Shown here: positions 6,546 through 23,740 of the stretch, piece by piece
How positions within the stretch are numbered: the first letter of the stretch is position 1
Layout: every line of letters begins with the position of its first letter
Virus record (IMG/VR): IMGVR_UViG_3300035698_020015
Span: 1 to 38,343 of that record
Source: a virus
Strand: one strand, 5' to 3'
Length of the DNA: 38,343 bases
Program-made: the position numbers and the translations under genes
Notes under the pieces: generated by a model
Database searches by the model: none
What the model was told of the DNA's origin: nothing
Seen by the model: the letters and a program-made list of their open reading frames with translations, nothing else

Positions 6546-6902
6546 ATGTCTATGTTCCAACAGTGGTTACGAGATCGCAATCTTAAAGAAGGGTTAGCTA
6601 ATGGTGCTGACCCAGTCGACGGCTTCAAATTTGGGGGCAGTGGTGAGGACTACGCCGATGACTATGAAAATGTGCAACGCGAGTTGTTCAAGTCAATTAT
6701 GAGCAAGTATCCAGATGAGGCGATGGAATTTTTTAATGGCATCGCACAGCGTGGAGATGAAGAAGTAGCCGCATTATTGAGTAAGTTGCAGCAAGACAAA
6801 CCAGATCAGATGCGCGAACCGCAACATCCGTCAGACGGAGATGAGGTAGTTCCATCTGGAGCCGATTCAGGCTTCGGTGGTGAATATGGCGGTGATGAAT
6901 AA
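6546..6902 (+). CDS. Small acidic protein, possible internal head protein
   Basis: 118 residues from ATG at 6546. The upstream ATG at 6534 overlaps what looks like the ribosome binding site (ATGAGG, 6 bases before 6546), so the later start is preferred. The N-terminus MSMFQQWLRDRNLKEG is an amphipathic helix with an L-x-E (LKE) site, similar in shape to the capsid-targeting sequences of T4 internal proteins. The rest is acidic, with a Gly/Asp/Glu-rich tail (GFGGEYGGDE). It is transcribed against the head block and converges with the next gene. Function unknown. Confidence 0.7.
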   Translation: MSMFQQWLRDRNLKEGLANGADPVDGFKFGGSGEDYADDYENVQRELFKSIMSKYPDEAMEFFNGIAQRGDEEVAALLSKLQQDKPDQMREPQHPSDGDEVVPSGADSGFGGEYGGDE

Positions 6903-6910
6903 CCTACGCT

Positions 6911-7156
6911 TTACTTCTCGGCTGGACTAGACATCCAATAATCGTGCATAGCCTTTAACAACTCAGGGTCCACCAAATCTAATACGGAATCCACATTGCA
7001 TTTTGGACAAATAGCCGTCTCACTCATGTCTGTCCATTCTTTAATTTCCGAAACATCGTAGGTTTCCAAGCAATTGTAGCAACCACAAGGGCCTAGCAGA
7101 CCCTTGCGGTTTCTCATCGCTCTCAGAGGGGCATTCTTAATTAAATCTTCGTTCAT
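6911..7156 (-). CDS. Small zinc-ribbon protein of unknown function
   Basis: 81 residues with C-x2-C pairs (CGCYNC at about residues 24-29 and CPKC at 50-53), a four-cysteine zinc-ribbon layout. The phrases NAPLRAMRNRKG and SEIKEWTD recall a small conserved bacterial cytoplasmic protein family whose function is not known to me. A GGCGG-like site precedes the ATG. Its stop lies 8 bases from the stop of the convergent gene. Bases 7157-7283 upstream show no gene. Confidence 0.75.
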   Translation of the reverse strand: MNEDLIKNAPLRAMRNRKGLLGPCGCYNCLETYDVSEIKEWTDMSETAICPKCNVDSVLDLVDPELLKAMHDYWMSSPAEK

Positions 7157-7283
7157 TCTTCCGCCTTACGAAAGTCATATTCATAGGAATGGATATGTCA
7201 TCTTCATGCATGATTTGAGGTGTACCAATTGTTTCTCTTAGATTCTTTCGATTTATCCAATAATTCATTTGCCGTCACCGCTT

Positions 7284-7712
7284 TCATTGTCTTATAGCAT
7301 TTCCGCAAATACTCAACGTACCATGTGTGTTATATGTGGTTCCGCTTTGTCTAAAATTGTGCCATCGTCCAAAAACCAAAATTTCTATTGTGCTGTTGAG
7401 ATAAGTAATGGGTTGATAGGGCGTGAACGTGAGACGAATATTGTTGGGCGTTAGTTCTAGCCATTTCTTCCACCAAGGCAATTTGTATGATTCGTCTATT
7501 TCTACCCAACCCCAATCTTTACAATAAAGTCCTGCTATGCCAATGACACTATATTTCATTTTGGACTTTCTTGTAAATTTTGTAACGATATGAGCCCACA
7601 CTGATTTTTGTTTGCCTATTGTCCAAAATGTCCATTTTTTTCTATCTTCAACAGATGTACTAAGTATTATGGTGATCAATATTCCGATACATCCTATGAT
7701 TACTCCAATCAT
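7284..7712 (-). CDS. Unknown protein with N-terminal membrane segment
   Basis: 142 residues. Residues 2-19 (MIGVIIGCIGILITIILS) form one hydrophobic helix, followed by a Trp/Lys-rich soluble part (KKWTFWTIGKQK, LPWWKKWLEL). The start overlaps the stop of the endonuclease gene (ATGA), so the two are translated together. This could be a cargo gene carried with the endonuclease or an older phage gene. No family recognised. Confidence 0.6.
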   Translation of the reverse strand: MIGVIIGCIGILITIILSTSVEDRKKWTFWTIGKQKSVWAHIVTKFTRKSKMKYSVIGIAGLYCKDWGWVEIDESYKLPWWKKWLELTPNNIRLTFTPYQPITYLNSTIEILVFGRWHNFRQSGTTYNTHGTLSICGNAIRQ

Positions 7713-8560
7713 GACAAAATCCTTTCCAGTCGTTCCAAAACAATTTGATAGTTTTCGCAGTCAAACACTTCCGTGGCTGTTTTTCGATTGTTGATTTCTG
7801 TATATATCTGTGTGCATCCTTCACTAGTGGCTCTTTTTATAACAGATGTCTCATCGTCTTTCTTGCATTTCCATTTCTTTACGAGCTTGGCATTGGGGCA
7901 TACGGTTTTGTGTTCTTTCAATCTTCTGCTCGGTTTTTTCGTGAATCCCAACTTGATTCTGTTGAGATTGAATTCTGGAATTGGTTGTATTAAGTAAAAG
8001 AAACCATCAGATTTCATATCCATAAGATACTTTTCTAATCGCTTTGCGTCTTCTTTGCTTATGGAATATTTGGTTCTACCTCCATGATTAGAAAATGTTT
8101 TGACGAACTCGCAATTGTTGTTTTTAGCCCATCTTTTGATCACTCTCCAGTCTGTGTTGTATTCCTTTAAGATATCAAGTATAGGAATGCATTGTGGTGT
8201 GTTATATTCTTGAAAGAACTTTTCCCCATCTTTCAGGCTCATAGCTTTAGTTGGAGGTCCAACAGAGCTTCTTAAAAGACGAAGTTCTACATTGTTTCTC
8301 TCTGTCCACAACCTCACAGTTTTTCTATCAACATTATTCCTTTTGGCAACATCTGGTATGGTAACCATGTCATCTGGAAGTGTGGTTATTTCTTCCCAAT
8401 AACTTGCAAATTTTTCGGAGCAAGCTTTTGAGATAGCTTGTACTGTTTTCCCGTTAGACGCTTTGACCTTTTGTGTTTCTACTTTATATTTCTTGATCCA
8501 CTTTCTGATTGTGGCTGGGTCGCAAGAACATTTTTTTGCTAGATCGAGTATTGTAATCAT
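7709..8560 (-). CDS. T5orf172/MUG113 (GIY-YIG-like) homing endonuclease with three HTH modules
   Basis: 283 residues. The C-terminal part (about 187-275) fits the T5orf172/MUG113 branch of the GIY-YIG fold: GFFYLIQ, then RIKLGFTKKPSRRLKEH, LVKKWKC, and GCTQIYTE ending in TATEVFD. The front has three successive helix-turn-helix units starting at residues 1, about 65 and about 125, each reading like ILDLAKK...DPATIRKWIKK. GGAG lies 9 bases before the ATG. It sits between the portal and the next head gene, as free-standing homing endonucleases do in T4-like phages. The natural target is probably the portal region, which also holds an intein and a related remnant. Confidence 0.8.
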   Translation of the reverse strand: MITILDLAKKCSCDPATIRKWIKKYKVETQKVKASNGKTVQAISKACSEKFASYWEEITTLPDDMVTIPDVAKRNNVDRKTVRLWTERNNVELRLLRSSVGPPTKAMSLKDGEKFFQEYNTPQCIPILDILKEYNTDWRVIKRWAKNNNCEFVKTFSNHGGRTKYSISKEDAKRLEKYLMDMKSDGFFYLIQPIPEFNLNRIKLGFTKKPSRRLKEHKTVCPNAKLVKKWKCKKDDETSVIKRATSEGCTQIYTEINNRKTATEVFDCENYQIVLERLERILS

Positions 8561-8614
8561 AGATTTTTCTCCTTTATCTATAATAGTAATACCGAGTCTA
8601 TTTTTTCCTCTTCA

Positions 8615-22532: not shown

Positions 22533-22561
22533 AACTCCTTAAAAAATCTTCTTTATTTTCA

Positions 22562-22592
22562 AACGGACTTGCCAAAAAATGGCAAGTCCGTT
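22562..22592 (+). terminator. Strong hairpin, probable terminator
   Basis: A 13-bp perfect stem (AACGGACTTGCCA at 22562-22574, complement at 22580-22592) with a loop of five A. The plus side lacks a long T-run (CTAATATA), so it may be a weak terminator or an RNA-processing/stability hairpin. Confidence 0.65.
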
Positions 22593-22631
22593 CTAATATA
22601 CCCTACGTGTGTCCATTAGTAGGAGATTATC

Positions 22632-22886
22632 ATGACCCGCTTATATGACGAATATCTACCAGAATGGCTTGCTGAAGCAAATCACAATATCGACTATGAT
22701 GATGAAGAAAATCCATATTACAACGACGAAGATGATGAATTGGAAGAAGATGAAGACGATGACGAATGGTATGCGGAAGATGAAGAAGAAGAGGATGAGG
22801 ACGAAGAAGGCGATGATTGGGACGATGACGATGACGATGACGATGACGATGACGATGACGATGACGATGACGACGATTGGGAATAG
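22632..22886 (+). CDS. Extremely acidic protein with poly-Asp tail
   Basis: 84 residues, over half Asp or Glu, ending in 19 Asp then WE. The N-terminal 20 residues (MTRLYDEYLPEWLAEANHNI) look like a short helix. GGAG lies 6 bases before the ATG. Such acidic proteins can mimic DNA or bind basic proteins, but there is no direct evidence for that here. The Asp run is coded by a 6-base repeat that could vary in length. The next gene starts two bases after the stop. Confidence 0.72.
   Translation: MTRLYDEYLPEWLAEANHNIDYDDEENPYYNDEDDELEEDEDDDEWYAEDEEEEDEDEEGDDWDDDDDDDDDDDDDDDDDDDWE
22821..22877 (+). repeat. Hexanucleotide GACGAT tandem repeat
   Basis: Eight perfect GACGAT units (22821-22868), then GACGACGAT, all in frame and coding Asp. 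A microsatellite likely to vary between relatives. Confidence 0.95.
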
Positions 22887-22888
22887 AC

Positions 22889-23509
22889 ATGAATCTTGGC
22901 ATTGAGTACCTCGTTAGAACCGGGGCAATAAAAAAGTTCATTCAAACCCCCTGCTCTCTTTTTGTGGAGCACTGGATGGGCGGTAAGATCATTGTTTTCC
23001 TTGAAAGGAAGCCCGGTCGATCTAATCTTTACAAAGTCACTCATTTTCATTTAGACAAGCTGTCTGAAGATGAGAGGCTTCCAAGAAGTGACAATTACGA
23101 AGTTCACAAAGATGAAATCTTTGATAGTGAAAGAGTTGTTCTTCCGGGAGACTACATTCTACTTTCCTACGTAGAACAACCAATCGACAACGGATATAAC
23201 AGATACAACCATCCTATGGATGAACGCACCTATAACCATTTTCTAAGCAAATACCTCCATTCTGAAATACACAAGCAAATGAAAGAAGCTTGGTTGTGGA
23301 AGGCTTATGCCAATTTGCATTTCAGCCAACCAATTCTTACTGACATATATTATGAACGATTTAGTCGGCACAGACTAACTTCGTCAGAACAAAATGTCGT
23401 CCAACAAGATGATCCAGAGAAATGGACAATTTGGACGATGTGGAGAAAGAAGTTTTTGAGATCCACCCGAGTGGCTCCTGAATTAGTCTTTAGTTCAGCT
23501 TACAACTGA
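22889..23509 (+). CDS. Unknown protein
   Basis: 206 residues from ATG two bases after the previous stop; only a weak GGGAA site is present, so coupling is likely. A TTG at 22877 in frame is possible but less likely. Sequence is Trp/Tyr/His-rich in the second half (WLWKAYANLHFSQPIL, WTIWTMWRKKFLRS). No family recognised. It overlaps the convergent gene by 15 bases. Confidence 0.68.
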   Translation: MNLGIEYLVRTGAIKKFIQTPCSLFVEHWMGGKIIVFLERKPGRSNLYKVTHFHLDKLSEDERLPRSDNYEVHKDEIFDSERVVLPGDYILLSYVEQPIDNGYNRYNHPMDERTYNHFLSKYLHSEIHKQMKEAWLWKAYANLHFSQPILTDIYYERFSRHRLTSSEQNVVQQDDPEKWTIWTMWRKKFLRSTRVAPELVFSSAYN

Positions 23510-23740
23510 CTCTTTCTTCATTTTCTTACGCATGGCTTTACGACGGCTCGCGGGATCTTCATAACCCACTGTGGCGGTTCTGATTCCGAGTTTAACCGGA
23601 TTATCGCCACCTTGCGGAAATGCACCAACTCCTTTGGATGCATCATATTTTGCTCGATCCATTGCGTCCTTCTCAGGACTGTCCATGGTGGCATTTCCTC
23701 CCGGACCCATTTCAATTTGAAGCCAGTTTTTGAATCTCAT
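23495..23740 (-). CDS. Small basic-tailed protein with capsid-targeting-like N-terminus
   Basis: 81 residues from ATG at 23740; the longer frame (to 23860) runs into the divergent gene. The N-terminus MRFKNWLQIEM is close to that of the 2H phosphoesterase (MKFRNWLLEMK). The C-terminus is basic (SRRKAMRKKMKKES), suited to DNA contact. No ribosome binding site; TATATA lies 6 bases before the ATG. It could be an internal head protein packed with the DNA; inference only. Confidence 0.62.
   Translation of the reverse strand: MRFKNWLQIEMGPGGNATMDSPEKDAMDRAKYDASKGVGAFPQGGDNPVKLGIRTATVGYEDPASRRKAMRKKMKKESVVS

Follow-up and report, generated by a model that had tools for sequence, protein, structure and literature searches.

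Why should three proteins that are otherwise different begin with nearly the same residues? This question is raised by a 38,343-nucleotide viral DNA fragment (IMG/VR record IMGVR_UViG_3300035698_020015, analysed over its whole length and hereafter called the window). A reading made from the sequence alone had noticed near-identical N-termini on the proteins starting at positions 6546, 12354 and 23740, and had proposed that they are equivalent to the capsid-targeting sequence (CTS) of bacteriophage T4 and mark a set of injected proteins. We found that this 38-kb fragment carries a T4-type head module, with PHROG matches to gp23, the gp21 protease, gp20 and the terminase, and that the shared motif is over-represented at the gene starts of related huge phages. 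We consider it likely that these N-termini are T4-type capsid-targeting propeptides, through which the proteins would be loaded into the head, cleaved and injected.

The three N-termini were confirmed as described. A six-frame search of the whole window with the pattern M..[FY].[NQ]WL returned exactly three sites, 6546 (+), 12354 (-) and 23740 (-), which open frames of 118, 183 and 81 amino acids (aa), respectively. Their leaders, MSMFQQWLRDRNLKE, MKFRNWLLE and MRFKNWLQIE, all stand at real gene starts, with the aromatic pair at F4/W7 (6546) or F3/W6 (12354 and 23740), and the L-x-E that had been pointed out in two of them is found as L-K-E (6546) and L-L-E (12354). The remainders of the proteins do differ: one is a 2H phosphoesterase, and the 81-aa and 118-aa proteins have no PHROG or Pfam match. 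In composition shuffles, for which the test set was all 325 Met positions of the window with at least 60 aa downstream, the strict pattern was observed at four Met positions (three genes, one having two Met) against 0.008 expected (P <= 0.001). A looser aromatic pattern taken alone is not significant in the window (five occurrences as against 1.97 expected, P 0.065) and, the window being short, the strong statistics therefore rest on the relatives. Two other N-termini match the loose pattern but were rejected as leaders: MAWWDFFKVF of the portal protein and MGVDFDTFLEW of a primase-like protein at 27697. Both are counted as false positives because relatives keep the same residues within the protein body.

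The motif agrees with what has been mapped experimentally in T4. In T4 the CTS is a long-established feature of a small number of internal proteins, IPI-III, which block type IV restriction (PMC12373910). Amber-suppressor work on IPIII (MKTYQEFIAE) attributed targeting mainly to residues 4 and 7, and processing to residues 8 and 10 (PMC9026906). In the motif described here, residues 4 and 7 correspond to the aromatic pair, 8 to the Leu/Ile and 10 to the Glu. Moreover, Glu follows 60 of 90 N-terminal motifs as compared with 6 of 25 internal ones (p 2e-4). In the mechanism that we propose, the aromatic pair and the following Leu/Ile would bind the prohead scaffold core late in infection, and the proteins would in this way be built into the prohead. 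The gp21-type protease would cut after the nearby Glu and release the cargo, which would leave together with the DNA when the particle next infects a cell. This would make the products of 81 and 118 aa small internal or core proteins; the 2H phosphoesterase, packaged beforehand, would act in the first minutes of infection, possibly in the degradation of nucleotide alarm signals or in RNA-end healing.

The terminase of the window shares 71-83% identity with its counterparts on several IMG/VR contigs, including a 458.8-kb (459-kb) relative (G003) and a 190-kb relative (G004); its identity to the terminase of LR756511, an uncultured phage of 595 kb, is 49%. The window is therefore part of a huge T4-like phage lineage. 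The gp21-type protease family (phrog_207) was present in all eight records tested. We scanned relatives with a simple gene caller for M-x(1-3)-[FYW]-x-x-[FWY]-[LIMVF] followed by Glu within five residues, the internal Met of the same proteins serving as control. This combination opens 27 of 707 genes in G003 as against 4 of 1674 internal Met (p 3e-11), and 16 of 300 genes in G004 as against none of 757 (p 1e-9). With slightly looser spacing, LR756511 (about 275 kb scanned) gives 17/590 gene starts versus 5/1034 internal Met, and LR745206 (200 kb scanned) gives 8/325 versus 3/890. Leaders typically read MKTFQEWLNE, MKFKDWLLKE, MRNFKQYLTE and MKSFNEWLVE, F..WL being the most common form, and the tagged genes are dispersed around the genome. 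A DNA-level search for the exact motif (ATG-K/R-F-x-N/D-W) had no match in the related records that it covered: Phe is frequently found in place of Trp and the distance to Met varies, so that a pattern at the protein level was needed. The sequence-only reading had named loss of the motif in relatives as the observation that would speak against its proposal; at the protein level we found it there enriched and conserved.

The same scan over 150 kb of T4 recovered IPII, IPIII and gp61.1, missed IPI and Alt, and produced one spurious upstream start; the per-genome counts are therefore approximate, with a few hits being spurious and some genuine leaders escaping the scan. The gp61.1 protein starts with the CTS-like MKTFKEFIKEDM, its profile also matches the region of gp23 around the gp21 site (NC_000866 18966-19130 and 105119-105247), and it is possible that it represents an unrecognised T4 internal protein. 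A separate observation concerns the 190-kb relative G004, in which five paralogues of about 570 aa lie in tandem (L071:10616-19225, minus strand). All five have a CTS-like leader (MVSFKEFLLE, MGFKDFVIFE and others) and most share a GLEHRxFNKF segment; the one tested gave no Pfam match.

In the 81-aa family the leader is kept in six of six members, whose starts include MRFKLWIQQE, MRFKLWLQTNE, MRFKNWLQIE, MANFKLWFYE and MKFKNWIQKE; a Gly/Pro-rich segment usually follows and most end in a basic tail. All homologues found of the 118-aa protein have the aromatic pair at positions 4 and 7 and an [L/V]-x-E-[G/S/N]; the aromatic class is swapped between F, W and Y at constant spacing, and position 8 is non-hydrophobic in two of them. 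We also considered the 81-aa protein as a homologue of T4 gp61.1, which is likewise CTS-like with a GG segment and a basic tail. This was unsupported, as phrog_1823 has no match in the window, and any likeness is architectural.

Many tagged genes are preceded by an element resembling the T4 late promoter TATAAATA, typically ending 4-7 nt before the ATG. In G003 and G004 together, TATA[AT]ATA or [CG]TAAATA occurs within 25 nt upstream of 13/43 tagged genes versus 16/850 untagged ones (p 4e-11), and the element in the opposite orientation, used as a strand control, shows no enrichment near tagged genes. Conversely, among open reading frames starting 3-7 nt after a late-type element, 11 of 28 are tagged in these two contigs and 6 of 16 in LR756511. 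In the window such an element precedes the 81-aa gene; one homologue (L004) has the same TATATAAG with the same 4-nt spacer, and two others (L013 and L010) have TATATA-type elements. The geometry of T4 late promoters places the transcription start relative to the element. With 4-7 nt before the ATG, a T4-type late start would therefore fall at or next to the start codon, which suggests, by analogy with T4, that these tagged genes yield leaderless late transcripts. A search with PHROG families for a gp55-type sigma factor gave weak hits (E 1e-5 to 1e-8) in G004, LR756511, LR745206 and LR756502 and no hit in the 459-kb contig, and tblastn with T4 gp55 found nothing.

The tagged protein at 12354 is the 2H phosphoesterase. 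It matches the general 2H family 2_5_RNA_ligase2 (PF13563) at 37.8 bits, above the cutoff, and Acb1 (PF23474) at a lower 34.2 bits against a cutoff of 27. It belongs to phrog_755, the PHROG of T4 57B, which is Acb1 (PMC9117128). The catalytic residues H61/T63 and H137/T139 are invariant across 12 homologues. Its AlphaFold model shows a confident 2H domain (mean predicted local distance difference test score, pLDDT, of 84.9); residues 1-14 score under 50 and are predicted to be disordered, while the remainder is mostly at 80-96. According to the model, the tag lies outside the 2H fold. A fold search returned 2H structures, with LigT/CPDase ranking above Acb1. Among the base-stacking and lid residues of Acb1 (Y12, W74, F107, W147 and E141), the position of F107 is occupied by Y131, and no equivalents of W147 or E141 were seen by eye; the profile alignment spans only 53 columns. 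Given this ranking and the unrecognisable lid residues, we call the enzyme Acb1-related and assign no substrate to it. In T4, acb1 (57B) adjoins ipI (NC_000866 73591-74410), and the N-terminus of Acb1, MMEFKDFS, has an F..F spacing. To our knowledge, T4 Acb1 is not known to be packaged. The paper describing it makes no mention of virions (PMC9117128).

The leader behaves as a module on this enzyme family. We fetched 80 related 2H loci and examined the 64 distinct ones. In 21 the homologue is a domain inside a long protein, and 22 of the 43 stand-alone members are tagged (e.g. MKTWTQFLDE, MSFKQFLVNE); four stand-alone members sorted as embedded by our script were reassigned by hand on length. 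The tag is missing from close homologues whose catalytic cores are intact. A tree of the family, poorly resolved at depth, requires about eight label changes, at least three of them forced by strongly supported branches, and the leader thus appears to have been repeatedly gained or lost. T4-type gp21 was found on seven of nine tested contigs of at least 28 kb with a tagged 2H gene (two being near-duplicates), whereas T4-type gp21 or gp23 was found on none of the 19 contigs with an embedded 2H domain. For stand-alone 2H genes, untagged T4-type ones included, 12-13 of 19 records have T4-type gp21 or gp23, several of these records being short fragments. Multidomain polyvalent proteins of phages have been predicted to be injected (PMC5512222). 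From these sequence comparisons, one enzyme family appears to have two routes of delivery, a leader where the head is of the T4 type and fusion to a long protein in other phages.

These distributions also bear on where the N-termini send their proteins. They could target something else in the infected cell, such as a membrane patch, a replication compartment or the baseplate. Short aromatic or hydrophobic N-termini are generally known to be able to act as amphipathic membrane anchors, the tagged genes are dispersed in the genome, and the packaging side of our proposal is something that we infer. Nevertheless, the experimentally mapped T4 positions are matched, the same pattern retrieves known T4 internal proteins, the promoters are of the late type, and on the contigs tested tagged 2H genes mostly occur with T4-type gp21/gp23 while embedded ones never do. 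We therefore regard another cellular target as rather improbable.

Even less probable is a constraint on translation initiation at A-rich leaderless starts (ATGAAATTC...) that involves no protein signal. It would account for the many tagged starts that have a TATA-type element 4-7 nt before the ATG and lack a Shine-Dalgarno sequence, but tagged genes with an ordinary Shine-Dalgarno exist (12354 and 6546), the nearby Glu is enriched, and homologues swap F, W and Y at constant spacing and therefore use different codons. That the motif is each protein's natural first helix and the resemblance coincidental is equally hard to maintain: although the loose pattern is met at about 1% of internal Met and picks up the portal and primase-like proteins, the three proteins are unrelated, the enrichment is genome-wide, and the 2H leader is predicted to be disordered and is absent from close homologues with intact catalytic cores.

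Several observations weigh against the capsid-targeting interpretation. The Glu lies anywhere from +1 to +5 after the motif; we looked for a fixed cleavage offset without finding one, and no single cleavage rule emerges. The leader at 23740 has L-Q-I-E, that is L-x-x-E only, in place of a strict L-x-E. Roughly one in two stand-alone 2H homologues is untagged, including that of a close relative (L009), and the Shine-Dalgarno sequences at 6546 and 12354 do not fit a leaderless arrangement. The gene caller is crude and the pattern gives false positives such as the two already mentioned. The cleavage site is the weakest part of the interpretation. The capsid protein has a predicted gp21 site, LENQRL(M/F)NE↓(A/I), aligned by eye to that of T4 gp23 and kept in relatives; the protease of this lineage may accept L-x-x-E, and 23740 would then be covered. 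Altogether, the idea of a T4-like CTS marking an injected set is supported at the level of sequence by the T4-type protease and capsid genes, the match to IPIII positions 4, 7, 8 and 10, the enrichment at gene starts, the leader kept in homologues (and in half of the stand-alone 2H proteins) and the late-promoter-like elements.

The features of the window on which this interpretation draws are collected below.

Table. Leaders, tagged genes, promoter-like elements and T4-type head genes of the window.
Feature	Position	Strand	Basis or remark
CTS-like leader MSMFQQWLRDRNLKE-G of the 118-aa protein	6546..6593	+	F4, W7, L8; L14-K15-E16 counted from first Met
118-aa tagged protein, acidic	6546..6902	+	between prohead core gene and portal, opposite strand to them
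CTS-like leader MKFRNWLLE of the 2H phosphoesterase	12328..12354	-	six-frame search; low pLDDT
2H phosphoesterase, 183 aa, Acb1/LigT-like	11803..12354	-	HxT at H61/T63 and H137/T139
CTAAATA late-promoter-like element, weak	12380..12386	-	25 nt upstream of 2H start
CTS-like leader MRFKNWLQIE of the 81-aa protein	23711..23740	-	six-frame search; homologues
81-aa tagged protein, candidate internal protein	23495..23740	-	GPGG segment, basic C-terminal tail RKAMRKKMKK
TATATAAG, late-promoter-like element	23745..23752	-	4 nt before ATG at 23740; no Shine-Dalgarno
T4 gp23-type major capsid protein	1555..3003	-	phrog_138, E 5.5e-82
Probable scaffold, gp22-like by position, coiled-coil-like composition	3018..3917	-	between gp21 and gp23
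T4 gp21-type prohead protease, predicted processing enzyme	3917..4624	-	phrog_207, E 3.9e-48; tblastn to T4-like gp21
Conserved probable prohead core protein, from internal ATG	4644..6377	-	position; kept in relatives
T4 gp20-type portal protein with intein-like insert	8615..11209	-	phrog_213
T4-type terminase large subunit	13904..15733	-	phrog_2; tblastn

The probable scaffold is conserved in relatives; neither it nor the probable prohead core protein has a PHROG match. The portal gene contains an intein-like insert (CFAGSTKVATPHGY...HNFCTDWGVAHNC), and the match to the portal profile starts only at residue 361. Elsewhere in the window, we noted by eye a protein resembling ParM/actin-type ATPases (32753-33766, minus strand; MAIGFDCGTYNLV...) and two proteins that are unusual for a phage: an M28-peptidase-like protein with an apparent signal peptide (15792-16880, plus strand) and a metalloprotease-like protein with AHELGHAILD (20791-22230, plus strand). 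A further protein (32089-32592, minus strand) has one domain in two internal copies, KFVNDLGVAAYILM and KVVSDLGVAAYLLM.

Other candidate cargoes come from the relatives. They include a tagged Arr-type ADP-ribosyltransferase (L040:7216-7584, minus strand) and tagged proteins with HD plus PolyA-polymerase, DUF5662, FMN-reductase-like and HD matches; NUDIX-like and HAD-like matches to tagged proteins are sub-threshold, and PADLOC gave no informative match on the tagged proteins. We tentatively suggest, while finding it slightly easier to doubt than to accept, that huge T4-like phages go into infection with a modular arsenal already loaded. Late proteins by the dozen, among them the Acb1-related 2H enzyme and enzymes of the Arr-type ADP-ribosyltransferase, HD, FMN-reductase and PolyA-polymerase types, would be routed by an interchangeable leader and injected, disarming nucleotide-signal immunity of the host before phage expression, and the 2H family would switch between tagged, untagged and fused forms. 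Should the leader be a mark of cargo throughout the huge phages, the proteins that an uncultured phage injects could be listed directly from N-termini, and most of these proteins have no other annotation. One or more classes of anti-signalling enzyme would then be expected to arrive ready-made, which opens to testing how a phage can counter immune signals raised before translation of its own genes.

That a CTS carries varied defence-related cargo in T4-like phages is a known principle (PMC3012670, PMC9026906, PMC12373910). Among open-licence papers, we found no report of a CTS in this huge-phage lineage or of such a leader on an Acb1-related enzyme, and searching text for the leader string of T4 likewise turned up no paper; the lineage, the number of candidate cargoes and the Acb1-related cargo appear to be new. 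In our best reading, this is a CTS system of the T4 type whose set of cargoes is far larger and rich in enzymes. As in IPI, IPII and IPIII of T4, unrelated cargoes have only the N-terminus in common, with the aromatic-x-x-aromatic-Leu/Ile spacing and in most cases a downstream Glu, in phages whose gp21, gp23, gp20 and terminase are of the T4 type. The system differs from that of T4 in that Trp instead of Phe is commonly the second aromatic residue, the Glu offset is variable, and tagged enzymes are common; the same scan yields 27 tagged genes in the 459-kb relative and three in 150 kb of T4, far more per genome.

Three further comparisons can be made. T4 Alt, a packaged ADP-ribosyltransferase, is also a head-loaded enzyme with an N-terminal propeptide, to which the tagged Arr-type enzyme of a relative can be likened. 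In contrast, Alt's own leader (MELITELFDE) does not fit the aromatic motif, and no homologue of Alt was found in the window. The 2H phosphoesterase shares with T4 Acb1 (gene 57B), which acts against the cyclic oligonucleotide-based antiphage signalling system (CBASS) and has 3'3'-cGAMP and related signals as substrates, its PHROG, an above-cutoff match to the Pfam family, the HxT/HxT tetrad and an aromatic residue six positions before the second catalytic His; it differs in the C-terminal lid, where W147 and E141 are unrecognisable, and in being outscored by LigT/CPDase. Finally, the long proteins in which the 2H family occurs as a domain on other phage contigs resemble the polyvalent class (PMC5512222). 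Their contigs are without T4-type gp21/gp23, and delivery there would rely on fusion, whereas here it would rely on a short leader.

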